64,000 nt of DNA from Streptomyces sp. 11x1 (lineage in GTDB: Bacteria; Actinomycetota; Actinomycetes; Streptomycetales; Streptomycetaceae): positions 5,667,001 through 5,731,000 of the forward strand of contig NZ_CP122458.1 of the NCBI RefSeq assembly GCF_032598905.1. Direction: 5' to 3'. A model generated the notes under the pieces. The model did no database searches. It saw only the letters and a list, made by a program, of their open reading frames with translations, and was not told the DNA's origin. Positions 10,589 through 63,791 of this stretch are shown piece by piece. The first letter of the stretch is position 1. Each line of letters opens with the position of its first letter. A program made the translations under genes and the position numbers.

Positions 10589-11230
10589 ATGAGCACATCG
10601 AGTACCGGGCAGCCCCCGGGCACTGCGACGTTTACCCGTACGACGCCGGGGCCCGGCCCCGGAGTCCGTCGGCCACCGGTTCAGCGTACGGACAGCGGAC
10701 CACTGCCGCCGCCGGACCCGGCCGAGCCCGAACTGTCCCGGCTGCGGCTGCCCGAACTGCGCACCCTGCGCCGGGACGCCCAGCGGGACGAGGCCGACCT
10801 CAGCTATCTGCGGCGGCTGCTCCAGGGTCGTATCGACATCCTGCGCGCCGAACTGGCCCGCAGGGGCGGTGCGGCCGACGCCGGGGCCCCGGGCTCGGCG
10901 GAGCCCTCGGCACTCGTCGACCGGCTTTCGGCGATCCTCACGGATGCGCCCGCCCGGCAGCGTTCCTCGGCCCGCCATGTCACCGTGGGCACGCCGCGCG
11001 GTGAGGAGTACCGGCGGCTGGCCGCCGAGATGCTGGACGAGGTGGAGCTCTCCGACCTCCAGGCCCGCACCGACGAGGAACTCACGGCGGGCCTCGCCCG
11101 CCTGGTCCACCACGAGCAGCAGATCTCCGGCCGGCGCCAGCAGCTGCAGCGCACGGCCGACGACTGCAGCGCGGAGATCGCCCGCCGCTACCGGGAGGGC
11201 GAGGCCCAGGTGGACGATCTGCTGACGTAG
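10589..11230 (+). CDS. rsiG: RsiG, c-di-GMP-dependent anti-sigma factor for WhiG
   Basis: A 213-residue protein. Residues about 45-85 and 160-205 form two long helices, and each carries the E-x3-S-x2-R-x3-Q-x3-D signature: E68, S72, R75, Q79, D83 and E176, S180, R183, Q187, D191. In S. venezuelae RsiG these twin motifs in an antiparallel coiled coil bind two intercalated c-di-GMP and hold the sporulation sigma factor WhiG inactive. The N-terminal 45 residues are Pro/Thr-rich. ATG 10589 follows GAGG closely; an in-frame TTG at 10580 is an alternative. Confidence 0.93.
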   Translation: MSTSSTGQPPGTATFTRTTPGPGPGVRRPPVQRTDSGPLPPPDPAEPELSRLRLPELRTLRRDAQRDEADLSYLRRLLQGRIDILRAELARRGGAADAGAPGSAEPSALVDRLSAILTDAPARQRSSARHVTVGTPRGEEYRRLAAEMLDEVELSDLQARTDEELTAGLARLVHHEQQISGRRQQLQRTADDCSAEIARRYREGEAQVDDLLT

Positions 11231-11267
11231 AGGGGACGTGCGGGTGCGATGTCGGGTGCGGGTGCGG

Positions 11268-11360
11268 GTGCGTGGGGGCTGGTCGCACAGTTCCCCGCGC
11301 CCCTGAAAAGCAGGGGCTGCGCCCCGTGCTTTTCGTAGGGGCGGCGGGGGCGAAAAACCC
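11268..11360. repeat. Streptomyces intergenic element copy 2 (partial)
   Basis: This contains CACAGTTCCCCGCGCCCC followed by a short hairpin (GAAAAGCAGGGGC and GTGCTTTTCG) and GTAGGGGCGGCGGGGGCGA, matching the left and outer arms of the element at 3141. It lies between rsiG and the acetyltransferase gene, both on the plus strand. Confidence 0.75.
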
Positions 11361-11396
11361 CGAGACAACGCGCCGGCACCCCCCTAGCGTGACCCC

Positions 11397-12662
11397 ATGA
11401 GCCCCTCCCACGACACAGCCGTACGCCCCGTCACCGAGGACGAGATCCCGGCCTGGCTGAACGCTCTGAACACAGGTTTCCTCCGAGCCCCGGAAACCCT
11501 GACCCCCCAGGAGCTCAAGGACCGCTCGTTCCACATAGACCCGTCCCGAACGCTGGCCGCGTTCGACCCCACCGCCCCCGCCGCCCAGCCCGTGGCGACC
11601 TTCCGCTCCTTCCCCCAGGAGCTCACCGCCGTCGGCGGCCGCACCGTCCCCGCCGACGCCATCACGAACGTCACCGTCAGCCCCACCCACCGCCGCCGAG
11701 GCCTGCTCACCTGGATGATGGCCCACGACCTCGCCGCCGCGAGGGACCGCGGTGACGTCGTCGCCACCCTGATCGCCGCCGAGTACCCCATCTACGGCCG
11801 CTACGGCTTCGGCCCAGCCACCTGGACCACCGAGTGGACCGTCGACGTCCCCCGCACCGGCCTGGACCCCCGCTGGTCCGGCCCGGCGGACGGCGGCCGG
11901 GTCGACCTCGTCGACGGCGCCGCCGTACGCGCCCTCGGCCCCGCCCTCCACGACCGCCTGCGCGCCGCGCAACCCGGCGCGGTGAGCCGCGACGAGCGCT
12001 GGTGGCGGATCAATACCGGCGACCTGCGTTTGTCCGGCTCCTGGAGAGAGCCGTTCTACGCGGTGTACCGCTCGGCGGCCGGCGAGGTCGAGGGCATGGT
12101 CTCGTACGAGGCGGACGACACCTGGCGGATGAAGCAGCCGCAGAACACGGCCGACGTCAACTGGCTGATCGCGACGAGCCCGGCCGCCGAGCGCGCCCTG
12201 TGGCACTACCTCTGCTCGATCGACTGGATCACCAAGGTCAAGTGCGGTTGGCGGGCCCCCGACGACCTTCTGCCGCACTTCTTCCCCGACCCGCGCGCCG
12301 TGAGCGTCACCACCCACGCGGACTGGCTGTGGGTACGGATCCTGGACGTCGTACGGGCGCTGGAGGCGCGGACGTACGCCGGGACCGGGACGCTGGTGCT
12401 GGAGGTCGTGGACCGGGGAGGCTTCGCGGACGGGCGGTACCGGCTGGACGCGGGCCCGGACGGGGCGAGTTGTGTGCCGACGAGCGAGGACGGCGACCTC
12501 GTCCTGGAGGTCGCGGACCTGGCGACGCTGTGGCTGGGCGACGAGTCGGCCGTACGGCTCACCGCGCTGGGCCGGGCCCGGGAACAGCGGAAGGGCGCCG
12601 CCGCCATGGCCGACGCCCTGCTGCGGACGTCCAGGCGCCCGTGGTGCCCGGACATCTTCTGA
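11397..12662 (+). CDS. Eis-like GNAT N-acetyltransferase
   Basis: A 421-residue protein with the Eis architecture: an N-terminal GNAT domain ([20 protein letters not shown], acetyl-CoA loop RRRG), a second GNAT-like domain and a C-terminal SCP2-like domain ending in VVPGHLL-like IF (…CPDIF), the terminal carboxylate being part of the active site in mycobacterial Eis. Members acetylate amines on aminoglycosides or proteins; the substrate here is unknown. TAGCGT at 11385-11390 ends 7 nt before ATG 11397, so the transcript is probably leaderless. Confidence 0.88.
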
Positions 12663-12720
12663 GGCCACCGGGGCTCCGGGGCCTCTGGAGACCTTTCCTG
12701 GTGTGTGCGGTTATCCGTAG

Positions 12721-12825
12721 CCGTTCAGTTCACTTCAGTTCACTTCATTCGATGCTGAGCTGTTCAGTTGTGGTTGTGGCTGCGCATTCAGTTGTGGCTG
12801 AGCCATTCAGTTGTGACGGTGCGGA
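12721..12825. repeat. Short direct repeats upstream of devE
   Basis: This segment holds CAGTTCACTT twice and TTCAGTTGTG three times (12763, 12787, 12806), in the 395-bp gap between the acetyltransferase gene and devE. No gene is seen. It could hold extra regulator sites or be decayed sequence. Confidence 0.6.
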
Positions 12826-12954
12826 CCGGTCGAACTCCCGGCTCCCCTCCGGAAGGGAGGTCGATCGGTCGGTCTGAGTGATCGCTTGGTCTGGGTGATG
12901 GTCGGCGGCAGTTGCCAGAGTCACCAACCATTCGAAAGTTTGACCATGTTGCGA

Positions 12955-13057
12955 AAGTTGGCGACCAACTTCACCTTACTTATCTCCGCTTGGAGTCGTC
13001 TCATAACCACCTTCCCGCGAACTGCCCAAAGATGGCGAGAAGTTGTAGTGTTTGTGC
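12955..13057 (+). promoter_or_regulatory. devE promoter with AAGTTGG-N3-CCAACTT operator
   Basis: A perfect 7-bp dyad at 12955-12971 (AAGTTGGCGACCAACTT) lies 75 nt from a -10 hexamer TAGTGT at 13046-13051, which ends 7 nt before GTG 13058. The block CATAACCACCTTC at 13002 through GATGG at 13035 is repeated almost base for base in the devA promoter at the same distance. Inference: autoregulation and cross-regulation by DevA/DevE. Confidence 0.75.
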
Positions 13058-13969
13058 GTGGAGCGGGAACGCACGGCCGTCGATGGGCGGAAGTCGTCAC
13101 AGCGGCCCCAGAGGTCACACCACGAGGTGGCCGACGTGTTGCGCGGCCGGATCAGGTCCGGCGAGCTGCGACCGGGACAGCGCATGCCCACGCAGGCGAA
13201 GCTGGCCGACGAGTTCGGCGTCGAGCGCGGCGCCGTGCGCCAGGCCCTGCGCATCCTGCAGTCGGAGCACCTGCTCACCAATGTTTCCAAGGGCAGTCCG
13301 GCGACTGTCGCCCCGCGCCTGGGCACGGCGGCCGTCGGCGGTCCGGGAGCGGCCCCGCGGCCGACGATGGTGGAGCTTGCCCCTCGCATATCCGCCGCCT
13401 TCGCGGCCCCGCACGTGAAGATCGACGCCCTCTGCCTGACCTCCGTGTCCCTCACGCTCGCCGTGAGTGAGGCGTTGCGCGAGATTCACGCGGGGCGCAT
13501 AAAACCGGCCAGGGTCGATGTCCGGGTGATGCTGCCCAGCCGGGACATCCCGCTCGCCTTCCCGGCCCCGGTCGACGCGACGGTCGACGGTCGGCTGCAG
13601 CGCCGCTGGCTGGCCCAGCGCAACGCCCAGGGCCAGGTCCTCAAGCACAACCTGCTGGCCCTGCGGTCCACGCACGGCGTGGACGTCCATGTGTCCTTCC
13701 GCGCCCTGCCCTTCACGCCGCCCGTGAAGCTGTACCTCCTCAACGGTCGGGAGGCGCTGTTCGCGTATTACACGGTGCAGCGGAAGGAGGCGGAAGTGGA
13801 CAGTGAGCAGCTGGAGATGTACGACGCCGAGGGCACTCAGTCCACGCTGTTCGCGTTCGAGCGGAGCGCGGTCGCCGAGCCCCGGGACACGACCTTCGTG
13901 GAGCAGTCCCGCCTCTGGTTCGACGCGCTCTGGGACACCATCAGCTCGGACCTGCTGCTCACGAGCTGA
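13058..13969 (+). CDS. devE: DevE, GntR-family developmental regulator (DevA paralogue)
   Basis: A 303-residue GntR regulator of the DevA subfamily. The winged HTH spans about residues 15-85 (HEVADVLRGRIRSGELRPGQ … VERGAVRQALRIL). The C-terminal domain (about 110-300) has ALPFTPPVKLYLLNG and SRLWFDALWDTI, shared with devA downstream; it resembles no standard FadR or UTRA domain that I recognise. In S. coelicolor devE (SCO4188) and devA are paralogues with separate roles in aerial growth and sporulation. GTG 13058 is chosen because the -10 predicts transcription starting there. Confidence 0.85.
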   Translation: MERERTAVDGRKSSQRPQRSHHEVADVLRGRIRSGELRPGQRMPTQAKLADEFGVERGAVRQALRILQSEHLLTNVSKGSPATVAPRLGTAAVGGPGAAPRPTMVELAPRISAAFAAPHVKIDALCLTSVSLTLAVSEALREIHAGRIKPARVDVRVMLPSRDIPLAFPAPVDATVDGRLQRRWLAQRNAQGQVLKHNLLALRSTHGVDVHVSFRALPFTPPVKLYLLNGREALFAYYTVQRKEAEVDSEQLEMYDAEGTQSTLFAFERSAVAEPRDTTFVEQSRLWFDALWDTISSDLLLTS

Positions 13970-14033
13970 CGGTCCCCGGCCACCGGCTGACGGCCGCCGG
14001 CACCGGCTTCCTCCTGTTCGAGAGCGCGTCGCC

Positions 14034-14225
14034 TCACATCGCCGGTCCGGCGAACATCACCGCGAGGATGACCGCTCCGATCGAGCTGCACGTGTGGTTG
14101 TTGGCCTTCAGTCCGATGGTGAGGAACAGCAGGCCGACGATTCCCAGGGTGCCGTAGCGCCACTCGACGAAGCGCTGGAAGGCGACGACGGCGAGAGCGG
14201 AGACGAGGGCGATGGCAGCGGGCAT
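14034..14225 (-). CDS. 63-residue two-helix membrane protein between devE and devA
   Basis: The minus strand encodes MPAAIALVSALAVVAFQRF, then VEWRYGTLGIVGLLFLTIGL and a last hydrophobic stretch, about two or three short membrane helices. GGAGGAGG lies 8 nt before the ATG. It is antisense in the space between devE and devA; a similar small membrane gene lies antisense after devB, so each dev unit has one. Function unknown. Confidence 0.7.
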   Translation of the reverse strand: MPAAIALVSALAVVAFQRFVEWRYGTLGIVGLLFLTIGLKANNHTCSSIGAVILAVMFAGPAM

Positions 14226-14291
14226 GGTGGTACCTCCTCCGAGGGGCCGGCACGGGCGGGGCGGTGCGAAGCGGTGTGGGGGAGAACTCTG

Positions 14292-14405
14292 CCAACTTGA
14301 CCAAGTTGGCAACCAACTTTGTTTAAATGGTTCCCACTTGGTCTATGTTCATAACCACCTTCTCGTGAACTCCCCAAAGATGGGTGAGAGTTGTAGCGTT
14401 TGGTC
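14292..14405 (+). promoter_or_regulatory. devA promoter with three alternating operator half-sites
   Basis: CCAACTT (14292), AAGTTGG (14303) and CCAACTT (14313) alternate, giving CCAACTT-N4-AAGTTGG and AAGTTGG-N3-CCAACTT dyads. The second dyad ends at 14319, exactly 75 nt before the -10 TAGCGT at 14394-14399, as in devE. GTG 14406 lies at +1 or close to it. DevA is reported to autoregulate in S. coelicolor, which fits an operator here. Confidence 0.75.
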
Positions 14406-15290
14406 GTGACCCAGGAGAACGTTGCAGTGAACGGCAGCAGAAAGCTCTCGTCCCAGGAGATCGCCGCCACCCTGCGGGACCGCATCCGCAGCGGCGACCT
14501 CAGGCCCGGCGAGCGCCTGCCCACCCAGGCCGAACTGGCGGAGGAGTTCGGCGTGGAGCGCGGCACGGTCCGTCAGGCCCTGCGCGCGTTGCAGGACGAC
14601 GGGCTGCTGAGCAACGTGAGCAAGGGGAGCCCGCCCCGGGTCGCCGAGGTCGGCCACAGCGCGGGCAACGAGCCCCAGCCGACGATGGTGGGCCTCGGCC
14701 CGCGTCTGGCCGAGGCATTCTCCGCACCGCACGTACGCGTGGACGCGGCCTGTCTCACCGCCGAGACCCTGATGCTGGCCCTCGGCGAACCGGTCCGACG
14801 TATCCACGAGGGGACGATCCGCCCGGAGTCCATCGACGTCCGGATCCTCCTGCCCTCCCGGAAGATCAACCTGGCGTTCCCGGTGCCGGTCGAGGGGCGC
14901 GGCGAGGACGACGAGGAGGATCCCGTCCACAAGCGCTGGCTCGACCAGCGCAACGCCCAGATCCGCGTCCTGCGCCACAACCTCCAGGCCCTGCGCACCT
15001 CGCACAAGCTCGACGTCCGAGTGACGTTCCGAGCCCTGCCCTTCACGCCGCCCGTCAAGCTCTACCTCCTCAACGGCCAGGAGGCCCTGATCGCCTACTA
15101 CATGCTCATGAAGCGCGAGGAGCAGATGGCGGACGGCCCCCTGGAGATGTACGACGCCTTCGGCACCCAGTCCCTCCTCTTCTCCTTCGAGAAGGAGACC
15201 GGCCCCCGGGACGCCGCCTTCGTCGAGCAGTCGCAGCAATGGTTCGACGCCCTCTGGGAAACCATCACGACGGACCTGACACTCTCCTAG
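14406..15290 (+). CDS. devA: DevA, GntR-family regulator of aerial development
   Basis: A 294-residue GntR-type protein: winged HTH in residues about 10-85 (ATLRDRIRSGDLRPGERLPT, VERGTVRQALRAL) and the DevA-type C-terminal domain with ALPFTPPVKLYLLNG and SQQWFDALWETI. It is required for proper aerial hyphae and spores in S. coelicolor (SCO4190). GTG 14406 is favoured by the -10 position; an alternative GTG at 14427 has AGGAG 9 nt upstream. Its stop TAG shares its G with the GTG of devB (TAGTG), so the two genes are translationally coupled. Confidence 0.88.
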   Translation: MTQENVAVNGSRKLSSQEIAATLRDRIRSGDLRPGERLPTQAELAEEFGVERGTVRQALRALQDDGLLSNVSKGSPPRVAEVGHSAGNEPQPTMVGLGPRLAEAFSAPHVRVDAACLTAETLMLALGEPVRRIHEGTIRPESIDVRILLPSRKINLAFPVPVEGRGEDDEEDPVHKRWLDQRNAQIRVLRHNLQALRTSHKLDVRVTFRALPFTPPVKLYLLNGQEALIAYYMLMKREEQMADGPLEMYDAFGTQSLLFSFEKETGPRDAAFVEQSQQWFDALWETITTDLTLS

Positions 15291-16057
15291 TGACTCCTGA
15301 CACGGCTGATACGGCGCAGACTGAACCGGTGACGGAAGAGACAGAGGCCACGGAGGCCCTTCGAGAACTGATCACACCCGTCCGCTTCGTGCTCTGGGAC
15401 CTGGACGGGCCGATCTGTCGACTGTTCTCCGGGCACCCCGCGCACCAAGTGGCCCGAGATCTGGTGGAGTTGATCGACAGGCGTGGGCTGGGCGGTCTGC
15501 TGACGGAGCGGGAGCGGAGCACGGCCGACCCGCAGGTGGTCCTCCTGGGGCTGGGCCGGCGCCATCCGAGCAGCGACCTGATCATCGACGTGGAGAAGTG
15601 GCTCACCCAGCAGGAGCTGACCGCCGCGCCCAAGGCGTACCCCACCACCTGGGCCGATCCGCTCATCCGGACCTGGTCCCGGCGGGCCAGGTTCGCCATC
15701 ACCACCAACAACTCGGCGCTGGCGGCGTCCCGTTACATCGCGACCCGGGGCCTCGCCGACTGCTTCCCGTACATCTACGGCCGTACGCGCGACCTCGACC
15801 GGATGAAACCGCACCCCCACACCCTGCGCCTGGCCCTCAACGCGATGGGCGCCGAGCCGTCCCGCGCTCTGATGCTCGGCGACGCCCCCACCGATTTCGA
15901 GGCCGCCCGCGACGCCGGCGTCCCCTTCCTGGGCTACGCGCGTACCGAGGCCAAGCTCAAGGCCCTCCTGGAGGTGGGCGTCCCCCTGGCCCACACGGTG
16001 AACTCGCTGAAGCCGGTCCTGGACGTCCTGCGCACCCAACTGCCGGATCAGGCCTGA
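15290..16057 (+). CDS. devB: DevB, HAD-superfamily hydrolase co-transcribed with devA
   Basis: A 255-residue HAD hydrolase. Motif I is DLDGP (nucleophile Asp and general acid Asp), motif II TTNNSA, motif III the Lys of RMKPHP and motif IV GDAPTD, so the catalytic set is complete for a phosphatase. The first 30 residues are Thr/Glu-rich and likely disordered. The gene overlaps devA by one base. The natural substrate is unknown; in S. coelicolor devB (SCO4191) forms an operon with devA and also affects development. Confidence 0.85.
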   Translation: MTPDTADTAQTEPVTEETEATEALRELITPVRFVLWDLDGPICRLFSGHPAHQVARDLVELIDRRGLGGLLTERERSTADPQVVLLGLGRRHPSSDLIIDVEKWLTQQELTAAPKAYPTTWADPLIRTWSRRARFAITTNNSALAASRYIATRGLADCFPYIYGRTRDLDRMKPHPHTLRLALNAMGAEPSRALMLGDAPTDFEAARDAGVPFLGYARTEAKLKALLEVGVPLAHTVNSLKPVLDVLRTQLPDQA

Positions 16058-16236
16058 ACCATGAGGAGCACGAAGACGAGCGCGGCCCACCAGCGCCAGG
16101 ACAACCGCTCCCGGCCTACTCGCACGGCCACGAGCACGGTGACGAGCAGTGCCAGGCCGAGAGGGCCGAAGGCTTTCCCTATCAGATGCCCCGCCGTGAA
16201 TTGGACTGCTGCGCGCACCACTTCCCATACCACCAT
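16048..16236 (-). CDS. 62-residue membrane protein antisense to the devB end
   Basis: ATG 16236 on the minus strand encodes MVVWEVVRAAVQFTAGHLIG, then two hydrophobic helices separated by a basic turn (VRVGRERLSWRWW). Its last 10 bp overlap the end of devB. A GTG three codons upstream is an alternative start. It parallels the membrane peptide gene at 14034 in position and orientation but shows little similarity to it. Function unknown. Confidence 0.65.
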   Translation of the reverse strand: MVVWEVVRAAVQFTAGHLIGKAFGPLGLALLVTVLVAVRVGRERLSWRWWAALVFVLLMVQA

Positions 16237-16270
16237 GCTTCCCACCCCGTCTCTGTCGACCCTCCATCAA

Positions 16271-16405
16271 CCAGTCCAATTGGCCTGCTAGTTGACTTGT
16301 CTGCTGTATGCCCGCCGCCCCTGATCCCTTAACTGTCAGTCCAGTTGGCTGGTTCACTTGACTGGAACTGGTTTGCCCGGCGTCCGGAAGCGGTACGGTC
16401 GAGGG
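16271..16405 (+). promoter_or_regulatory. Promoter of the third GntR gene with repeated CAGTCCARTTGG
   Basis: CAGTCCAATTGG (16272) and CAGTCCAGTTGG (16337) are direct repeats 65 bp apart, and CCAGTT at 16341 pairs with AACTGG at 16366 as a wide dyad. A -10 TACGGT at 16394-16399 ends 7 nt before GTG 16406, the same spacing as devE and devA. The motif differs from the AAGTTGG dyad of devA and devE, in keeping with a different specificity. Confidence 0.55.
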
Positions 16406-17287
16406 GTGGGTGAGGCGCGAACCGGCGAGGGTGGCGGCAGCAAGTTCGAGCGTGTCCTGGAGACGCTGCGGGCTGGGATTGCTGACGGCACGTATCCGGT
16501 GGGCAGCTCCCTGCCGCCGCAGCGGAAGTTGGTCGAGGAACTCGATGTCTCCCGCGCCACCGTCCAGAAGGTTCTGACCAGGTTGAAAGAGGAAGGGGCG
16601 ATCGCGTCCAGGCAGGGCAGCGGGACCTGGGTGCTGGGTGCGCAGCGGGTGCGATCCGGTGGATCGGCGGGAGGCGGGCCAGAAGGCCGGGTGACACTGC
16701 GCTCCTTTTTCGACCGGGCCTTCGAGCGGCCTGAAGTGTTGCTGGACATCCATACGCTGACGTCCGAATCTCTGAATACGCACATTCGGCTGCAGGCCGA
16801 GCGGATCCGTGACCGAGAGATCGCGCCTGAGCGTGTACTCCTGCGCCTGCTGCTGCCGGATCCCTCGACGCCCCTGCCGTACATCACGGTCAAAGGCCAT
16901 TCCGAGGACGGGCGTCTCCGGGAACGCCTTTGTGCGATCACGCGCACCCATACGGATCTGCTGGTGAGCGCACTGGACGAACTACGGCGCGAAAGGCTCG
17001 TCCCACGCGTCGAAGTCGAGATCCGCCACGCCAAGCTGGCCCCGACCTTCAAGGTCTACCTGCGCAACCGGTGCGAGGTTCTGCACGGCTTCTATGAAGT
17101 GATCGAGCGGACGATCGTGGACGGAGGGGAAGAAGTCGAGGCCCTCGACGTGCTCGGACTGGGCGCCACGATGACCCACCATGGGAAGGACGACGGCGAT
17201 GCTTCCTCGTCGGTAGCTGTCTTCGTGGACAACGCTCAGACCTGGTTCGACTCGGTCTGGAAGCTGCTCACGGTCGAGGGTGGTTGA
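16406..17287 (+). CDS. GntR-family regulator, third dev-like paralogue
   Basis: A 293-residue protein. The winged HTH lies in residues about 12-80 (ERVLETLRAGIADGTYPVGS, VSRATVQKVLTRL). The C-terminal domain has the same outline as DevA/DevE, including KVYLRN in place of KLYLLN and AQTWFDSVWKLL near the end, but is clearly diverged. The start GTG 16406 follows the -10 spacing. The last 20 bp overlap the 3' end of the convergent HAD gene. Inference: it controls the neighbouring HAD and kinase genes. I know of no described function. Confidence 0.8.
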   Translation: MGEARTGEGGGSKFERVLETLRAGIADGTYPVGSSLPPQRKLVEELDVSRATVQKVLTRLKEEGAIASRQGSGTWVLGAQRVRSGGSAGGGPEGRVTLRSFFDRAFERPEVLLDIHTLTSESLNTHIRLQAERIRDREIAPERVLLRLLLPDPSTPLPYITVKGHSEDGRLRERLCAITRTHTDLLVSALDELRRERLVPRVEVEIRHAKLAPTFKVYLRNRCEVLHGFYEVIERTIVDGGEEVEALDVLGLGATMTHHGKDDGDASSSVAVFVDNAQTWFDSVWKLLTVEGG

Positions 17288-18023
17288 CCGGCGGAAAGGC
17301 GCAGGCGTCCACGAGCTGACGGTGCTCGTGGACCACACAGTGCGCGCCCTGCCGACGTAGTCTCCCGGCGCACTCGGCATCTTTCGAGTAGCCCAGGAAC
17401 CCGACCCCGGCGGATCTGGCCGCCTGCAGATCGCTGAGCTGGTCGCCGACCATGACGGCGTCTTCCGGGCTTATGTCCCCCAGGTGCCGCAGGGCGCTGC
17501 GCAGCGAACTCGGGTGCGGTTTCATGAGGTGCGGTTCCCGCGGATCGCGGCCGAAGATCTCCTCGAACTTGTGGGACATGCCGTGCAGTTCGAGGAAGTT
17601 CCGTACAGGATCCGCGGCGTTGTTGGTCACGATCACCAGTCGCTTGCCGAGCCCGAGGAGGGTGTCGAGAAGGGTGTGGATCTCCGGCGCCGGGACCGCC
17701 GAGGCCACGGCGTCGTTCTCGTACCGTGTGACCATCTCGTCCGCCCTGCCCAGCGTCTCCGGGTCAAGGGCACCCACCCCGCTCCGCTCCAGCATGGCGC
17801 CCAGGAGTCGAAGGAGGCTGTGCGAGTCCTCGCACGCCTCGGCCGCGGGGTCCAGTACCTGCCAGGTCCGCCTGGCCATGGCCTTGATCTCCTGGGCGAC
17901 CGGTTTGGTCGACCGGTCGGCGAAAAGATCGCAGACGGGGCCGTCGAAGTCGAAGAGAACCGCTCGTGTTCTGCTGAGGAGCGTCGGTAAGCACATACGA
18001 GTGTCGACCGGGGGTCTCGTCAT
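17268..18023 (-). CDS. HAD-superfamily hydrolase (DevB-like)
   Basis: A 251-residue HAD hydrolase with DFDGPVC (motif I), VTNNAA (motif II), the Lys of LMKPHP (motif III) and GDQLSD (motif IV), all catalytic residues present. It has the same motif forms as DevB (DGP, TNN, MKPHP), so the two are likely paralogues. It is convergent with the third GntR gene and divergent from the kinase gene at 18146. MTRPP at 18023 is the longest start; an in-frame ATG at 17996 is an alternative. Probable small phosphomonoesterase; the substrate is unknown. Confidence 0.82.
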   Translation of the reverse strand: MTRPPVDTRMCLPTLLSRTRAVLFDFDGPVCDLFADRSTKPVAQEIKAMARRTWQVLDPAAEACEDSHSLLRLLGAMLERSGVGALDPETLGRADEMVTRYENDAVASAVPAPEIHTLLDTLLGLGKRLVIVTNNAADPVRNFLELHGMSHKFEEIFGRDPREPHLMKPHPSSLRSALRHLGDISPEDAVMVGDQLSDLQAARSAGVGFLGYSKDAECAGRLRRQGAHCVVHEHRQLVDACAFPPVNHPRP

Positions 18024-18145
18024 GGGAGCCAGTGTGGCCCAGCGGCTCGTCGGATCCGAGAGACGGAACAGTCACCGACGACCCGGGAGACGGGAACCTG
18101 CGATTGAGTCACTTCTGGCACGATGCGGCACCACGGGGGAGTAAC

Positions 18146-19282
18146 GTGCCTCCACTTCTTGATTTCACCACTGGTGCGACCTCGGCGAGAGAACAAGCAA
18201 TGCCAGCTGATTCGGAGTCCATGGGGCGGCGCCGCGCCGGTGAGATGAGCGCCGCCCCGGACGAGGTGGAGGGACCGCTCAGCGGCTACCACCATGAGAC
18301 GTACGTCTTCCGTCTGCCCGCCGAGGCGAAGGTCGGCGAGGGCGGACGCTGGAAGTGCCGCGAGCCGCGCGAGAGCCTGCTGTGGTTCGACCGGCGCTGT
18401 TTCGACTCGGAGGAGCGCCTCCTCACCGAACTGCAAGGACGCATCGACAACATCCCCGAGCTCATCGAGGTCGAGGGCACCGTCCTTCAGCGATTCATCG
18501 AGGGCGACACACTCGGGACTCACCACGCGTCCGACACGGCTGTCCCGGAGGAGGCGTTCGAGCAGATCCTTGACCTGTTCGGGCAACTGGTCGCCGTAAG
18601 GCCCCGGACCCTTCTGGTGAAGCGGAGGTGCGAGCGGCGGGACCGCGCGGTGGAGGGCGACAGCGCAGGCTTCCTCGACCGGCTGATCTGCTTCACCGAA
18701 GAACGCGTGTACGGGGAGAATTTCCCGGAGTACGGCGGACTGTTCGCGGACCTGGAGCTGGATCCCGACTCCTTCAAGCAGCTCCGAAAGCACGTGGCCG
18801 GCCTGCGGGAGCGCCCCTTCTGTCTCCTCCACGCCGACCTCCACCGCGAGAACCTCATCGTCGACCACGAGCGCCGCCTGTGGGCCATCGACTGGGAACT
18901 CGCGATGTTCGGCGATCCGCTCTACGACCTGGCCACCCACCTCTACCTGATGCACTACCCGTCGGATCAGGAACGGCGGATGACGGAACGCTGGTGTGCG
19001 CTCGTCGAGGGCGTCAGACCGGGAAGTTCGCGAGGCTGGCGGGAGGACCTGCCGAAGCTGCTCGACTTCAAGAAGGCGCAGTCGGTGTTCACCGACGTGA
19101 TCCGCACCTCCCAGGCCCTGCGTCTGGAGCAGAACGCCGACCCAAAGCTGATTCGCAAAGCCGGCTGGACGGTGTGGGACGTCCTGAGCAGGGGAGCACA
19201 GCCCCTGGGGGTCGAGCGGGTACCGAGCGTGTCGACTATCGAAGCCGCTCTGACTCGCTGGCTTCGCGATGGCGGGGGATGA
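18146..19282 (+). CDS. APH-fold phosphotransferase (single kinase domain)
   Basis: A 378-residue protein of the aminoglycoside phosphotransferase/choline kinase fold. The catalytic loop is HADLHREN at residue 229 (Asp base and metal-binding Asn) and the metal-binding Asp lies in AIDWELA; the N-lobe is short and atypical (WKCREPRESLLWFDRRCF). GTG 18146 is preceded by GGGGGAG 4 nt away; ATG 18200 is the alternative start. It is divergent from the HAD gene, sharing a 122-bp intergenic region. Substrate unknown: an antibiotic, a sugar or a choline-like alcohol are all possible. Confidence 0.78.
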   Translation: MPPLLDFTTGATSAREQAMPADSESMGRRRAGEMSAAPDEVEGPLSGYHHETYVFRLPAEAKVGEGGRWKCREPRESLLWFDRRCFDSEERLLTELQGRIDNIPELIEVEGTVLQRFIEGDTLGTHHASDTAVPEEAFEQILDLFGQLVAVRPRTLLVKRRCERRDRAVEGDSAGFLDRLICFTEERVYGENFPEYGGLFADLELDPDSFKQLRKHVAGLRERPFCLLHADLHRENLIVDHERRLWAIDWELAMFGDPLYDLATHLYLMHYPSDQERRMTERWCALVEGVRPGSSRGWREDLPKLLDFKKAQSVFTDVIRTSQALRLEQNADPKLIRKAGWTVWDVLSRGAQPLGVERVPSVSTIEAALTRWLRDGGG

Positions 19283-19310
19283 CACACGCCCAGGGCGCCA
19301 GGGGCGTGTG
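19283..19310 (+). terminator. Hairpin between the two kinase genes
   Basis: CACACGCCC (19283-19291) pairs with GGGCGTGTG (19302-19310) around a 10-nt loop, right after the kinase stop codon. Partial termination between the two genes is likely. Confidence 0.6.
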
Positions 19311-19423
19311 GGATCGTAGGCGCGCGTCGAGCGCCCATACACCCCTGCGGCATGCCGGCTGGCTCGTCGTTCCCTCTTCCTCGGGTGCTTCCGCCACCCG
19401 TGTCGACCGTCCAGGAGTGTTCA

Positions 19424-21862
19424 GTGCCCGCAGCATCCGTACCTTCCCCGGCTGAGCGGCGCGGCCGGGTGTCAGGGGCTGTCTGTGAGGCGTTCGTCGA
19501 GCGGGCGATCCGCGACGGCGAGATGACCAGCGGTCATCACAACAGGAACTTTCTTCTGCCTCTGGACGAGGCCATGGCGCGGGAAGTGGGGGGCGAGGCA
19601 GATACGCCCGTGACCGTACGGGTCCGCAAGCCGACGGACGAGGCACTGCCGGTCGTGATCCGCACCTGGCGCGACGAGGTACGTGTCCTGGACGCCGTCG
19701 GCAGTGTCCTGCCGCATGTGCCGACGTGCCTCGCCGAGTCCTGGGGGGCGGCTGTCCACAGCTATGTGGACGGGGTCCCGCTGTCCAGGCTTTGCCCGGA
19801 GGGCCGATCCGTGGACCGGACCCTCATCGAGAAGCTGACGGCTCTGCTGGCCGAGATGTCGCGCGTGCGCGAGGAGTCGTTGCCGCCGTTGCCCGACTAC
19901 TGGCCGTGTGAAGACGACGGTGGCCAGGCGTTCCTGCACACGCTGGCGAAACTGGTCCACCATGACGTCTGCCTGCCCAACTGGCACAGGTTCGGCAACC
20001 TCTTCGCGTCCCTGCGCATCCCCAGGGACGCGATGCTCCAGTACGCCGAGCACGTACCGGAGCTGACGAGACGTCCGTACAGCCTGCTCCACGGGGATCT
20101 CCACCGGGACAACGTGATCCTGACCTACTCCGGTGAGCCGCCGCTCTTCTGCGTCGACTGGGAGCTGGCGACCTACGGCGACCCGGTACACGACCTGGCC
20201 GTCCACCTGGTCAGGATGGGGTATCCGAACGCGCAGCGGGACGACGTGATCACGGCCTGGGAGCGGGCGGTCCGGGCCGTCACACCCGCTGCGACCGAGG
20301 GTCTGGAAGCGGACCTCGACCACTACGTCGAGTTCGAGCGCGCACAGTCGGTCTACCCCGATGTGATGCGTGCGGCTCAGTCCCTGGACGGTTCGTTCGA
20401 GCAGCACGACCTGGACCGGGCGACCGGATCGATTCGTCGGGCGTTGGAGGCCGCCGCACGCCCCCTACGGCTCGTCGACATGCCCTCCGGGCCGGAGATC
20501 GAGGACGCGCTCGTCGCATGGCAGAAGCTGAGAGACAGCAGACACATGAAGCTGCGTCCGCTGATCGCGATCGACTGGACTCGGCGCACACGGCTGCCCC
20601 GAGCCGAAGGTGAACCCTCCGACGTCGTCCTGGACGAGGCGCTGGCGGCGGAGCGGCGTGCCTCAGCGGACCAGGTGCTGACCGGAACCACTCACCGCAA
20701 CACGGTCGTGTGCGTCGAGGCCGCACCGCATCCGGTCGTGGTGCGCCGCAGGCGCGAGGGGGTCCACGGGAACCGGCGGAGCTTCCTGCACGAGCACGTC
20801 GTGCTGGAGGCCATCGCGCGGTCGGACATCAAGGTGTCGGCCCCGAAGGCGCTCGGGCTGGGGATGAGTGAGGGGGGCTTCCTCTTCGCCCTGCACTCGT
20901 ACGTCGGCACGCCCACGTATCCGGGCCGGCTCGACCATCCGGTGGACGGGCTGCGACCGGACGAGGCGGACGCCCTCGTGGACCAGTTGTGCGAACTGAC
21001 CAAGGTCGACAAGGGCTTGCTCGGATCGTTCGGGACGTGCCCCGACGGCGCCGATTTCTATCGTTCACTCAGCGATCAACTGGTGGAACAGGTGGTCGAG
21101 TTGTCCCCGCAGACCCGGGAACTGGCACACCAACTCGGCCTCCCGGAAGCGGGTCGACTGCGAGAGATCCTGCACTCGTACCAGGTGACCCCCAGGAGTC
21201 AGGCACTGCTGCACGGTGACCTGAACCCGTGGAACCTCGTACGCCGCGAGGGCGAGGCAGCGCCGCTGGCGGTGGTCGACTGGGAAGCCGCCATGCTGGG
21301 AGACCCGCTGTACGACCTGGTACGCCACATGCATCTGACACCGACCCCGTGGCGGATCCGTAAGCAGATGTTCGATCGGTGGCAGGAGCGGCTGGACGAG
21401 GAGTACACCTGGCGCTGGCGGAGCGACGAGCGTGTCTACCTGAGGCTGGAGAGGGTGAGGTCCGCCTATGTGGACCTCGACCGCCTGGTCACCCGCTCCA
21501 GCCTCGACGCGCCCGGTGTGAGCAGGGCCGTGGACTCGTACGCCGCAACACTGGCTCGGGCCAAGGCCGCGCTCGGACTGCGGGGGTGGCGCCGGGGAGG
21601 GGACGTCCAACCCCTGCTGCTGCGGGCCCTTCCGTACGCCGGGCGTGGCAGGCCCCTGGCTCAGGAGGCGATGCGGTGCCTCGTCCAGCGGTTCATGGAA
21701 ACGGACTGGGAGCTGCCACGCAGGACGCTGCGGACCGAACTGCGGCGGATCGGTTCCGCAGGGTCGCACGCCCTGCGCGCCGTGCTGCCCTCCGCACCGC
21801 GCGGCTCGACGAGCCTTTCCGGCCAGGCCATCAGTGCGAGCGACGCGCCTGATCGTGCCTAG
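19424..21862 (+). CDS. Double APH-fold phosphotransferase (two tandem kinase domains)
   Basis: An 812-residue protein from GTG 19424, chosen for AGGAG six nt upstream. It has two complete kinase cores: domain 1 has HGDLHRDN at about residue 223 and VDWELATYGDP; domain 2 has HGDLNPWN at about residue 597 and VDWEAAMLGDP. A linker of some 100 residues joins them and a Arg-rich tail of about 100 residues follows. Domain 1 resembles the single kinase just upstream (WELA.YGDP.HDLA.HL; ERAQSVYPDV versus KKAQSVFTDV), which suggests duplication. Family members are normally about 300 residues, so a double kinase is unusual. Its stop TAG lies inside the -10 box of the next gene. Confidence 0.8.
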   Translation: MPAASVPSPAERRGRVSGAVCEAFVERAIRDGEMTSGHHNRNFLLPLDEAMAREVGGEADTPVTVRVRKPTDEALPVVIRTWRDEVRVLDAVGSVLPHVPTCLAESWGAAVHSYVDGVPLSRLCPEGRSVDRTLIEKLTALLAEMSRVREESLPPLPDYWPCEDDGGQAFLHTLAKLVHHDVCLPNWHRFGNLFASLRIPRDAMLQYAEHVPELTRRPYSLLHGDLHRDNVILTYSGEPPLFCVDWELATYGDPVHDLAVHLVRMGYPNAQRDDVITAWERAVRAVTPAATEGLEADLDHYVEFERAQSVYPDVMRAAQSLDGSFEQHDLDRATGSIRRALEAAARPLRLVDMPSGPEIEDALVAWQKLRDSRHMKLRPLIAIDWTRRTRLPRAEGEPSDVVLDEALAAERRASADQVLTGTTHRNTVVCVEAAPHPVVVRRRREGVHGNRRSFLHEHVVLEAIARSDIKVSAPKALGLGMSEGGFLFALHSYVGTPTYPGRLDHPVDGLRPDEADALVDQLCELTKVDKGLLGSFGTCPDGADFYRSLSDQLVEQVVELSPQTRELAHQLGLPEAGRLREILHSYQVTPRSQALLHGDLNPWNLVRREGEAAPLAVVDWEAAMLGDPLYDLVRHMHLTPTPWRIRKQMFDRWQERLDEEYTWRWRSDERVYLRLERVRSAYVDLDRLVTRSSLDAPGVSRAVDSYAATLARAKAALGLRGWRRGGDVQPLLLRALPYAGRGRPLAQEAMRCLVQRFMETDWELPRRTLRTELRRIGSAGSHALRAVLPSAPRGSTSLSGQAISASDAPDRA

Positions 21863-21865
21863 GCT
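21860..21865 (+). promoter_or_regulatory. -10 box of the TetR gene overlapping a stop codon
   Basis: TAGGCT begins with the stop codon of the double kinase (21860-21862) and ends 8 nt before ATG 21873, as for nur/ygfZ at 8910. Confidence 0.6.
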
Positions 21866-21872
21866 CGACGGC

Positions 21873-22487
21873 ATGAGTGAGAGTGGGCTGCGGGAACGCA
21901 AGAAGCGACGGATGTACGAGAACGTGTCGGAGGTCGCGATCCGGCTGTTCCTGGAGAAGGGGTTCGACGCGGTGTCCGTGGCCGAGGTGGCCGCGGCGGC
22001 GGAGATCTCCAAGCCGACGCTCTTCCGGTACTTCCCGGCCAAGGAGGACCTCGTCCTGTACCGGATCGCCGATCACGAGGACGAGACGGCGCGGGTGGTC
22101 GCGGGGCGGGCCGAGGGGGAGTCCGTGGTGGGGGCGGTGCGGGCGCACTTCCTGGAGGGACTGGCCCGGCGCGACCCGGTGACCGGGCTCAACGACCATC
22201 CGCAGGTGCTCGCGTTCCACCGGCTGCTCTACGGGACGCCGTCGCTGGTGGCGCGGGCCTACGGCCATCTGGAGCGGGCCGAGGCCGCGCTGGCCGAGGT
22301 GCTCGGGGGCGGGCTCGACGCGAGGGTCGCCGCCGGGCAGATCGTGACCGTACGGCGGGTGCTGGCGGAGGAGAACCGGCGGCGGGTGGAGCGGGGGGAG
22401 CCGGTCGAGGAGGTCGAGCGGGACGCGGTCGCCGCTGCCGAGCGGGTGTTCGGACGGTTGGAGGAGGCCCTGCCGCTCGGGGTGTGA
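21873..22487 (+). CDS. TetR-family regulator
   Basis: A 204-residue TetR regulator with the N-terminal HTH (AIRLFLEKGFDAVSVAEVAA, then ISKPTLFRYFPAKEDLV) and a helical ligand domain with many Arg/Glu/Val residues. Transcription is probably leaderless from the -10 overlapping the upstream stop. It lies 78 bp before the HelD-like helicase gene, whose promoter region carries two dyads, so local control is plausible. No ligand can be inferred. Confidence 0.88.
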   Translation: MSESGLRERKKRRMYENVSEVAIRLFLEKGFDAVSVAEVAAAAEISKPTLFRYFPAKEDLVLYRIADHEDETARVVAGRAEGESVVGAVRAHFLEGLARRDPVTGLNDHPQVLAFHRLLYGTPSLVARAYGHLERAEAALAEVLGGGLDARVAAGQIVTVRRVLAEENRRRVERGEPVEEVERDAVAAAERVFGRLEEALPLGV

Positions 22488-22501
22488 CGAAGGGATGCGC
22501 C

Positions 22502-22558
22502 CCGAGGGATTACGATCCTCGGTAATAAATGTAACTCGGTTACGTTTTTCGCTACGCT
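22502..22558 (+). promoter_or_regulatory. helD promoter with candidate TetR operators
   Basis: CCGAGG (22502) pairs with CCTCGG (22517), and GTAAC (22531) with GTTAC (22539) around TCG. A -10 TACGCT at 22553-22558 ends 8 nt before ATG 22566, so the second dyad covers the -35 position. A protein bound there would repress. Confidence 0.6.
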
Positions 22559-22565
22559 CGGCGGA

Positions 22566-24737
22566 ATGACGCCTCCTCGCGCATCCGCCCACCCTGCCGA
22601 CCCCGCTGACCCTGCCGCCGATGCCGCCCTCCTCCAGGACGCCCTGGCCCGTGAACGCGCGTACCACGACACCTGCCGTGCCGCTCTCGCCGCCATGGTC
22701 GAGAGGGCAGGCGAGCAGGTCGTCGTCGGTGAGGACGTCTCCGCCTCGGGCGCCGACGCGGAGGTGCTCGGGTACCGGCTGCGCAGCCGGGCCAAGGAGA
22801 TGCGCGAGCTGCCGGAGGGGCCGTTGTTCTTCGGGCGGCTCGACTTCGCCGCTCGGGCCCCCGGTGACCACGCCGGGCAGAGCTATCACCTGGGGCGGCT
22901 GCGGATCAGCGAGGACCCGGCCGTACCGCCGCTCGTGGTGGACTGGCGGGCCTCGGTTTCGCGGGCCTTCTACCAGGCGAGTTCCCGTGATCCCCAAGGC
23001 GTCGCCGTCCGACGCCGCTTCGGGTGGGTGCCGGGCAGCCTGGGGGATTCGGCCGACCTGACGGGGCTGGAGGACGAGCATCTGGAACGCCGGGCGCCCG
23101 CTCCGGACGGCCCAGGCCCCGCCTCTGCTGCGGCTTCCCCGGGCAGCCTCCTCGCCGCCGAGATCGAGCGGCCCCGGCTCGGTCCGATGCGGGACATCGC
23201 CGCCACCATCCAGCCGGAGCAGGACGATCTGGTGCGGGCGGACCTCGCGACCTCCGTCTGTGTGCAGGGCGCCCCCGGCACCGGCAAGACGGCCGTCGGG
23301 CTGCACCGCGCCGCGTACCTGCTCTACACCCACCCCCAGCGCATCCGCCGCGGCGGACTGCTGATCCTCGGCCCCAACCGCACGTTCCTCTCGTACATCG
23401 CGGAGGTGCTGCCCGCGCTGGGCGAGACGGGCGTACGGCAGTCGACGGTCACGGACGAGATCGCCCGGCATGAGGTGAGGGCGCGGGACGAGGAGCGGGC
23501 GGCGGTGGTGAAGCATGACGCGCGGATGGCGGAGGTGCTCCGGCGTGCGCTGTACGCCGGGGTCGCGGGCGGCGGCGGATCCGGGAAGGGGTTGGATCGG
23601 TCGGAGGTGTTCGACTCCCTCGTCCTGGCGGAGGGCTCGTACCGCTGGCGGGTGGCCGGGGACGAGCTGCGGCGGATCGTGACGGACGTACGGGCCGAGC
23701 AACTGCCGTACGACGTAGGGCGGGAGCGTGTCCGGGCGCGGGTGGTCCGGCTGCTGCAGGAGCAGGCGGAGCGGCGGGCCGGGCCCCGCCCGAACGCGTG
23801 GCTGTACCGGGTCTCGCGGTCGCGGCCGGTCGGCGCGTACGTGGACGCCGTATGGCCGAAGGTGCGGCCGGAGGAGGTCGTGGCCCGGCTGCTCGGTGAC
23901 CCGGACGTGCTCGCGGACGCGGCGGAGGGGCTGCTCGACGCGGACGAGCAGAAGGCCCTCAGCTGGGCGAAGCCGCCGCGTACCTGGCGGTCGGCTCGCT
24001 GGTCGGCCGCCGATCTCGTCCTCCTCGACGAGGTCGCGGGGCTCCTCGCCCACCCCGACGGCTACGGCCATGTCGTCGTCGACGAGGCTCAGGACCTCTC
24101 CCCGATGGAGTGCCGCGCGATCGCCCGCCGGGCGGCCTACGGGTCGGTGACCGTCCTGGGAGACCTGGCCCAGGGGACGACGCCGTGGGCCGCCCGCGAC
24201 TGGCCCGGACTCCTCGCCCACCTGGGCAAGCCGGACGCCCGTGTCGTCCCTCTGACCACCGGGTTCCGGGTGCCGCAGGCCGTCGTGGGACTGGCGAACG
24301 GGTTGCTGGGGAGGCTGGGGGTGGAGGTGCCGGCCGCCCGGTCTCTGCGGAGGGACGGGGAGCTGCGGATCAGGAGTGTTCGCGGAGAGGACGTCGTCGC
24401 TGAGGGTGTCGTGGCCGAGGTCGTGGACGCCGTGCGGGACGCGCTCGGGTGTGAGGGGTCCGTCGGGGTCATCGTGGCCGATGGGCCCGACGTCGTACGG
24501 CTGCGTCAGGCGCTCGACGAGGCCGGGATCTCGACGGGTGGGCCGGACGAACTCCGTTCGCGGGTGGCTGTGTTGGGGGCTGGTGTCGCGAAGGGTCTGG
24601 AGTACGACCATGTCGTGGTCGTCGAACCGGCGGCGATCGCGGAGGCCGAGGAACGGGGGCTGCACCGCCTGTACGTCGTCCTCACCCGGGCGGTGTCGCG
24701 CCTGGACGTGGTGCACGCCCGTGCGTTGCCGTGGTGA
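22566..24737 (+). CDS. HelD/UvrD-like RNA polymerase-associated helicase
   Basis: A 723-residue superfamily I helicase-like ATPase of the actinobacterial HelD class. The N-terminal coiled arm spans about residues 15-120. Walker A is GAPGTGKT at about 235-242, the DEAQD box (motif II) is in VVVDEAQDLSP, TTGFRVP is motif IV-like, and the C-terminal motif VI region is HRLYVVLTRAV. HelD proteins pull stalled RNA polymerase off DNA and recycle it; a subset (HelR) protects it from rifamycins. No rifamycin-associated element was seen upstream, so this is called HelD-like only. Predicted leaderless. Confidence 0.85.
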   Translation: MTPPRASAHPADPADPAADAALLQDALARERAYHDTCRAALAAMVERAGEQVVVGEDVSASGADAEVLGYRLRSRAKEMRELPEGPLFFGRLDFAARAPGDHAGQSYHLGRLRISEDPAVPPLVVDWRASVSRAFYQASSRDPQGVAVRRRFGWVPGSLGDSADLTGLEDEHLERRAPAPDGPGPASAAASPGSLLAAEIERPRLGPMRDIAATIQPEQDDLVRADLATSVCVQGAPGTGKTAVGLHRAAYLLYTHPQRIRRGGLLILGPNRTFLSYIAEVLPALGETGVRQSTVTDEIARHEVRARDEERAAVVKHDARMAEVLRRALYAGVAGGGGSGKGLDRSEVFDSLVLAEGSYRWRVAGDELRRIVTDVRAEQLPYDVGRERVRARVVRLLQEQAERRAGPRPNAWLYRVSRSRPVGAYVDAVWPKVRPEEVVARLLGDPDVLADAAEGLLDADEQKALSWAKPPRTWRSARWSAADLVLLDEVAGLLAHPDGYGHVVVDEAQDLSPMECRAIARRAAYGSVTVLGDLAQGTTPWAARDWPGLLAHLGKPDARVVPLTTGFRVPQAVVGLANGLLGRLGVEVPAARSLRRDGELRIRSVRGEDVVAEGVVAEVVDAVRDALGCEGSVGVIVADGPDVVRLRQALDEAGISTGGPDELRSRVAVLGAGVAKGLEYDHVVVVEPAAIAEAEERGLHRLYVVLTRAVSRLDVVHARALPW

Positions 24738-63713: not shown

Positions 63714-63787
63714 GCCTCCTTAGCTCAGCTGGCCAGAGCAACGCACTTGTAATGCGTAGGTCGTCGGTTCGAATCCGACAGGGGGCT
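63714..63787 (+). tRNA. tRNA-Thr (anticodon TGT)
   Basis: A complete cloverleaf: acceptor GCCTCCT with AGGGGGC (one T-G pair), D arm GCTC...GAGC, anticodon arm ACGCA-CTTGTAA-TGCGT with anticodon TGT at the centre, and T arm GTCGG-TTCGAAT-CCGAC. CCA is not encoded. Confidence 0.96.
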
Positions 63788-63791
63788 CCGA

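Follow-up and report, generated by a model that had tools for sequence, protein, structure and literature searches.

The closest described relatives of the genes considered here belong to the dev sporulation locus of Streptomyces: devA, devB, devC and devE have been characterized in S. coelicolor, and S. sviceus has the additional copies DevF and DevG (Clark and Hoskisson 2011, PMC3187754). According to the available part of that paper, devA is autoregulated, a devB mutant is conditionally bald, and the locus combines regulators of one GntR subfamily with a HAD partner, DevB, and a small divergent DevC. DevA has been called restricted to actinobacteria in the available part of a study of PlmA (PMC5083789). 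The word 'kinase' does not occur in the available main text of the former paper, nor 'phospholipase' in the available text of the latter, and in the open-licence literature we found no report of a kinase linked to dev, of a phospholipase D (PLD)-like fold for DevA, of a ligand for a DevA-type regulator or of a substrate for DevB. Here we describe a block of genes at positions 16271–21862 of a 64,000-nucleotide stretch (the window; 5.667–5.731 Mb) of the 10.67 Mb genome of Streptomyces sp. 11x1. The block contains a third DevA-like GntR regulator (GntR3), an antisense HAD-type phosphatase (HAD2), a single APH-fold kinase (APH1) and a double APH-fold kinase (APH2), and is flanked by homologues of devE, devA and devB upstream and by a TetR gene and a UvrD-like helicase downstream. 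An earlier note on this DNA knew of no comparable described system; the dev genes themselves are published, and it is the kinase link that appears to be unreported. Comparison across the genus supports well the conclusion that regulator, phosphatase and kinases constitute a co-inherited functional module.

The arrangement proposed in the earlier note, with the third GntR gene and the HAD gene tail to tail, followed by a divergent single and then a double APH kinase, agrees with open reading frames and Pfam matches:

16406..17287, plus strand: GntR3, GntR helix-turn-helix (HTH) and predicted PLD-like sensor domain (sensor at about 16691–17284); PF00392, E 4.1e-17
17268..18023, minus strand: HAD2, HAD-type phosphatase antisense to GntR3; PF00702, E 9.2e-21
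about 18200..19282, plus strand: APH1, single APH-fold kinase; PF01636, E 7.6e-16
about 19424..21862, plus strand: APH2, double APH-fold kinase; PF01636, E 1.5e-39, in two stretches

The ends of GntR3 and HAD2 overlap by 20 bp and APH1 is divergent from HAD2. The GntR3 frame is open from 16358; the start codons of APH1 and APH2 are uncertain, their frames being open from 18032 and 19352 respectively. GntR3 has an N-terminal GntR winged helix (PF00392, 62 bits against a cut-off of 27) and a C-terminal domain that is a homologue of the one in DevA, both features of the DevA subfamily, whose alignment retains 19 invariant columns over 17 members. It aligns almost end to end with DevE (29%, E 5.6e-24) and DevA (30%, E 6.3e-24), its two near full-length relatives in its own genome, the other 22 matches covering the HTH part only. 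Compared with the published dev locus and its extra copies, GntR3 occupies the same place, and its 29–30% identity to DevE and DevA resembles, by comparison with published figures only, the 29–33% that Table 2 of PMC3187754 gives for DevF and DevG. Unlike the published copies, it has its own predicted operator and an antisense HAD gene.

Co-occurrence in other genomes had been set beforehand as the test of the association, and proved to be strong. Among 295 Streptomyces genomes searched (GntR3 and APH2 at E ≤ 1e-40, APH1 and DevA at 1e-30), GntR3 was found in 84, APH2 in 129, APH1 in 172 and DevA in 203, the two kinase searches overlapping in that the APH1 query also finds APH2. Where DevA matched at ≤1e-40 a kinase-family match was present in 168/174 genomes, against 8 of the remaining 121 (113 without). 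We then compared 160 loci, comprising the window itself, 80 selected through GntR3 (a match was present in 84 genomes, from which our own and 80 others were used, and G202, G214 and G261 left out), 59 selected through DevA, and 20 of lower DevA identity, fetched at reduced length from 61 further DevA genomes. In 158 of these loci a DevA-like GntR gene has a HAD gene no more than 2 kb away, and in 148 it has an APH kinase no more than 3 kb away; all three families are together in 148/160, and likewise in 71 of 80 named loci identified through DevA only. Gene order was counted over 161 regions, which add L177, chosen by its kinase and excluded from the 160. A same-strand row of GntR, HAD and kinase occurs in 72 and the window's own order of GntR, antisense HAD and kinase in 15, with GntR and HAD overlapping tail to tail in 11 of the 15. 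A row of GNAT, single GntR, HAD and kinase is the entire recognised content of 11 regions, and the full series of devE, devA, devB, GntR3, antisense HAD and three kinase domains occurs in 6/80 named loci, for example in Streptomyces sp. MNU76 and S. adelaidensis. Since the species are related, the genome counts are not independent and the Fisher p-value should not be read literally, a circumstance that favours a rival account: that the interval from devB to the TetR gene is a recombination hotspot shared by separate metabolic genes, which are linked through common ancestry and block transfer rather than through function.

The pairing of individual genes bears directly on that account. Of 71 APH1-type domains, 64 adjoin a HAD gene; 44 follow it in the same orientation, and in the other 20 the two stand back to back, the HAD gene being antisense. 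This constancy of partnership in either orientation speaks against a hotspot of unconnected genes. Among the 99 domains nearest to the first half of APH2, 51 follow GntR3 and 30 follow a HAD gene. The set is not separate from dev, because 44/71 APH1-type kinases stand directly behind a same-strand HAD and a row of devA, devB and kinase is common, which qualifies the reading in the earlier note. Protein distances were also correlated after removal of the signal from flanking genes (partial r, 500 permutations). Over 40 loci the coefficient is 0.56 for GntR3 and APH2 and 0.55 for GntR3 and DevB (each 0/500 permutations), and small, at 0.13, for GntR3 and DevA (34/500); over 15 loci it is 0.67 for HAD2 and APH1, 0.52 for GntR3 and HAD2 (each 0/500) and 0.22 for GntR3 and APH1 (32/500). 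Distances of DevB (15290–16057) thus track GntR3 more than DevA (0.18), and devB may therefore belong to the exchangeable part of the locus. A chance neighbourhood was rejected in view of the co-occurrence, the locus counts, the pairing and the co-variation of distances.

Copies on plasmids provide a view of the module away from the dev flanks. Nine plasmid records carry a GntR3 relative, of which seven are from Streptomyces, five of these being S. canus records with identical identities; the same seven hold an APH1 relative, with regulator and kinase close together. A HAD gene is present on all three Streptomyces plasmids inspected: NZ_CP109170 has GntR, HAD and kinase in a row, NZ_CP114282 has the order HAD, GntR, kinase, and NZ_CP107987 has GntR, HAD and kinase with an SMI1/KNR4 gene in between. 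The presence of all three families on plasmids argues against the hotspot account. On the two Nocardia plasmids (L232, L314) a glycosyltransferase follows the regulator and there is no annotated HAD or kinase nearby; genes of the excisionase or HTH and TraM types are close to these regulators. Outside Streptomyces, genes for DevA-like GntR proteins (L222, L225, L227, L232, L314) lie in apparent mobile elements, and in L222, L225 and L227 an overlapping HAD gene follows. Phage records contained no GntR3 match at 1e-8.

On the chromosome the block occupies a single site and is exchanged, as a hotspot would have it. In S. diastatochromogenes and S. olivochromogenes (L245, L246; 150-base steps) GntR3 and the double kinase have diverged together, with nearly identical sequence on either side: DNA identity is 93–100% to the end of devB, 71–89% and once 51% over GntR3 and APH2, and 95–99% beyond APH2, with one step at 64%. 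The window and MNU76, compared in 100-base steps over 15200–18400, share 92–100% to 16500, 67–85% over 16550–17200, 86–94% over 17250–17500 (the end of HAD2) and 96–99% further on. In 57 pairs of loci with DevA/DevE 93–97% identical (duplicates included, and not every gene in every pair), median identity is 0.76 for GntR3, 0.70 for HAD2, 0.79 for APH2, 0.85 for APH1 and 0.90 for DevB, against medians of 0.90 (GNAT), 0.94 (TetR) and 0.90 (helicase). When duplicate genomes were removed from the close pairs (37 reduced to 29), the GntR3 sensor was less alike than the DevA sensor in 29/29; divergence of the sensor only was rejected as a general rule, the HTH and sensor medians being 0.78 and 0.78 and the sensor lower in 16/29 pairs. 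The ratio of non-synonymous to synonymous substitution (dN/dS) is 0.15–0.41 for module genes against MNU76 and S. adelaidensis; against S. caniscabiei it is 0.22–0.38 for GntR3, HAD2 and APH1 and 0.56 for the DevC-like gene, and against the more distant L292 it is 0.40–0.60, near saturation. These values indicate that the module genes are constrained. Weighing exchange and relatedness against plasmid copies and constant partnership, we consider the hotspot account unlikely. The swaps, which take in regulator and kinase in the first pair and, for the window and MNU76, the greater part of the regulator only, also enter a more speculative idea to which we give little credence: that the dev locus is a polymorphic, exchangeable signalling cassette, in which kinases and phosphatase set the phosphorylation state of a signal, diffusible or internal, and a dead-phospholipase sensor reads that state to gate development. 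Swapped regulator and kinase alleles would then have each lineage answering a different, private ligand.

All HAD and kinase motifs that the earlier note quoted as intact are present, and they are kept in relatives. The Asp, Lys-Pro and Gly-Asp residues persist in 189–191/191 HAD relatives and the Thr or Ser in 191/191; H, D and N of the HxDxxxxN loop are each kept in 239/243 kinase domains, and the DWE-type metal motif in 233–242/243. At the presumed ATP-binding position, Lys is found in 69/71 APH1-type domains and Arg in 77/99 and 72/73 domains of the APH2 N- and C-types respectively. The nearest models to HAD2 are of the phosphoglycolate-phosphatase type, with scores below cut-offs. On the question of whether the kinases are plain resistance enzymes, no NCBIfam resistance-kinase model reaches its curated cut-off (capreomycin phosphotransferase, for example, scores 37.1 against 390 bits), and known aminoglycoside or macrolide resistance enzymes were rejected as identities, all scores being far below. 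One might still envisage a detoxification or resistance set, in which the kinase inactivates an antibiotic or toxic self-product, the HAD enzyme reverses or recycles this and the role of the GntR protein is confined to inducing the set. Among solved structures the closest in sequence include the hygromycin-B kinase (APH1, 2e-5) and viomycin kinase (APH2, 0.01), plasmid copies occur and the block diverges fast. These matches are weak and short, however, and throughout the genus the genes are tied to devA homologues at a single place on the chromosome, so we judge a resistance set improbable. Weak matches to APH kinases of the ACAD10/11 kind (3dxp, 1.7e-5 for APH2; ACAD11, 4.6e-4 for APH1 and 5.3e-3 for APH2) likewise cover short stretches, and no dehydrogenase was seen in the module. 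In ACAD10 a HAD domain is joined to an APH domain. That the kinases and HAD2 act on a protein, either GntR3 or the DevC-like protein, has a precedent in a GntR regulator phosphorylated by a protein kinase in Streptococcus suis (PMC10010549, from the part available); given that the kinase domains score as APH-type and HAD2 lies nearest to phosphoglycolate-phosphatase models, we think this very unlikely.

The sensor domain of GntR3 is predicted from its structural model to be a degenerate phospholipase-D-like domain. All 50 listed structural matches (VIA) to the modelled domain fall in families that we take to be PLD-type, including the TrmB sugar sensor; the VIA list for the whole-protein model is filled by HTH matches and is hence silent on the sensor. 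The PLD catalytic His, two residues before the Lys of HxKxxxxD, is found in 0/391 sequences; the Lys is kept in 387/391, and the Asp position, five after the Lys, holds Asp in 1/391 and Asn in 369. GntR3 differs from TrmB, an archaeal sugar-sensing regulator (2f5t, 3qph), in its GntR-type HTH and shares 9–10% identity; the TrmB-type HTH model PF01978 scores 19.6 bits on GntR3, below its cut-off of 25.6. We know of no kinase or HAD partners of TrmB. A DevA-like sensor domain also occurs outside GntR proteins, since a 787-residue open frame in L109 (11600–13960, plus strand), read as SAV_2336-like, ends in one (13535–13867, 58 bits).

Regulatory sites were sought across the block and the adjoining dev genes, whose features are as follows:

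12955..12971, no strand: DEV box (AAGTTGG-N3-CCAACTT) upstream of devE, 0 mismatches
13052..13969, plus strand: devE-like GntR regulator, 92–96% identity to DevE of near relatives
14034..14225, minus strand: devC-like small membrane protein upstream of devA, by DevC-like profile
14303..14319, no strand: DEV box upstream of devA, 0 mismatches
14400..15290, plus strand: devA-like GntR regulator, from open reading frame and Pfam
15290..16057, plus strand: devB-like HAD phosphatase; PF00702, E 2.8e-14
16048..16245, minus strand: second DevC-like small membrane protein, divergent from GntR3; E 1.5e-13 with an iterated DevC-like profile that by then already includes this protein
16273..16286, no strand: G3 box (AGTCCAATTGGACT, one mismatch), likely operator of GntR3, a palindrome read from sequence only

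The G3 box is absent from the earlier note, whose block start at 16271 falls at this operator and outside any gene. At one mismatch or fewer, AAGTTGGNNNCCAACTT precedes devA in 99/150 and devE in 109/129 upstream regions and GntR3 in 0/83; the G3 box at one mismatch precedes 38/83 GntR3 genes and no devA or devE, and shuffled upstream controls at one mismatch gave 0 operator matches. DevA/DevE and GntR3 accordingly use different predicted operators. In the whole genome at one mismatch or fewer, the DEV boxes are only the two at the dev locus and the G3 box is a single site (at two mismatches there are 20 DEV boxes, near the control of 18); the regulators thus look local and mutually insulated. 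A set of 21 divergent HAD-APH intergenic stretches shares promoter-like words only, with no common operator palindrome and no 6-base inverted repeat in more than two. GntR3 control of the kinases is thus not supported by predicted operators in the window's layout; where a same-strand kinase directly follows GntR3, one operator could serve both. The G3 motif (≤2 mismatches) also occurs inside a kinase gene in nine places, such as L044:10813 and L047:5423, about 550 bases into the gene in the three cases inspected, and may reflect either conserved codons or an internal site.

Taken as a whole, the block may be one copy of a recurrent module of DevA-subfamily GntR, HAD and APH kinases, often with a divergent DevC-like protein, acting as a small-molecule phosphorylation switch, a reading to which we assign an even chance. 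The APH-fold kinases would phosphorylate a small molecule and the HAD enzyme would dephosphorylate it; GntR3 would bind either the phosphorylated or the unphosphorylated form in its PLD-like pocket, in which a Lys is retained at the presumed phosphate site, and binding would alter its hold on its own operator, by which GntR3 may adjust its own expression as well as that of any neighbour on the same strand. Different alleles probably have different ligands. The degenerate PLD-like fold predicted for the sensor makes sensing of a phosphorylated metabolite more plausible, and control by phosphorylated small molecules, as proposed for GntR3, is known in DasR and NagR/YvoA, which respond to phosphosugars and have the GntR HTH in common with it. 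These regulators carry a sensor of the HutC/UTRA type, a different fold from that of GntR3. NagR/YvoA has been solved in complex with glucosamine-6-phosphate (4u0v, according to its title).

Several observations weigh against such a switch. Genomes with only a weak DevA relative lack a kinase match in 26/29 cases (3 with), 12/160 loci have no nearby kinase, and GntR-HAD pairs without a kinase exist (L194–L197, L222, L225, L227), while in 48/161 regions two kinase domains come immediately after GntR, a second HAD being absent from the interval. APH1 and DevA distances co-vary too (0.45; 0/500; 15 loci), so the pairing is not exclusive, a point that also favours the hotspot account. Both halves of APH2 have Arg at the presumed ATP-lysine position where APH1 has Lys; Foldseek alone gave no match to the sensor domain at E ≤ 0.001, the best being 1.1e-3; and the G3 box precedes only the stated share of GntR3 genes and was not found at the HAD2-APH1 promoter. 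The single linked regulator-kinase-phosphatase system of the earlier note holds as far as co-occurrence, co-varying distances and plasmid copies are concerned, and falters at the kinase-free loci and the missing G3 box. Of the accounts considered, the one that fits best, though unproven, is a small molecule whose phosphorylation is set by kinases and HAD and sensed by GntR3. If true, it would join metabolite state to sporulation. The conserved kinase partner and the PLD-like sensor fold make the DevA-type ligand and the DevB substrate testable, the kinase product being a candidate for the ligand and for the substrate of both DevB and HAD2.

The protein at 16048–16245 (minus strand), also absent from the earlier note, is small and hydrophobic, and a DevC-like gene lies upstream of 135/150 devA, 68/131 devE and 54/84 GntR3 genes; a reversed-sequence control of the iterated profile gave 0 matches. 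An Rfam scan of 11000–23000 gave no match, and PADLOC returned nothing for HAD2, APH1 or APH2 and for GntR3 only five weak matches in the HTH region (best E 0.0054). In four genomes (G077, G092, G206, G285) devA-like genes are in separate fragments, as if decaying. The sole tRNA gene detected within the window is tRNA-Thr (TGT), at 63714–63789.

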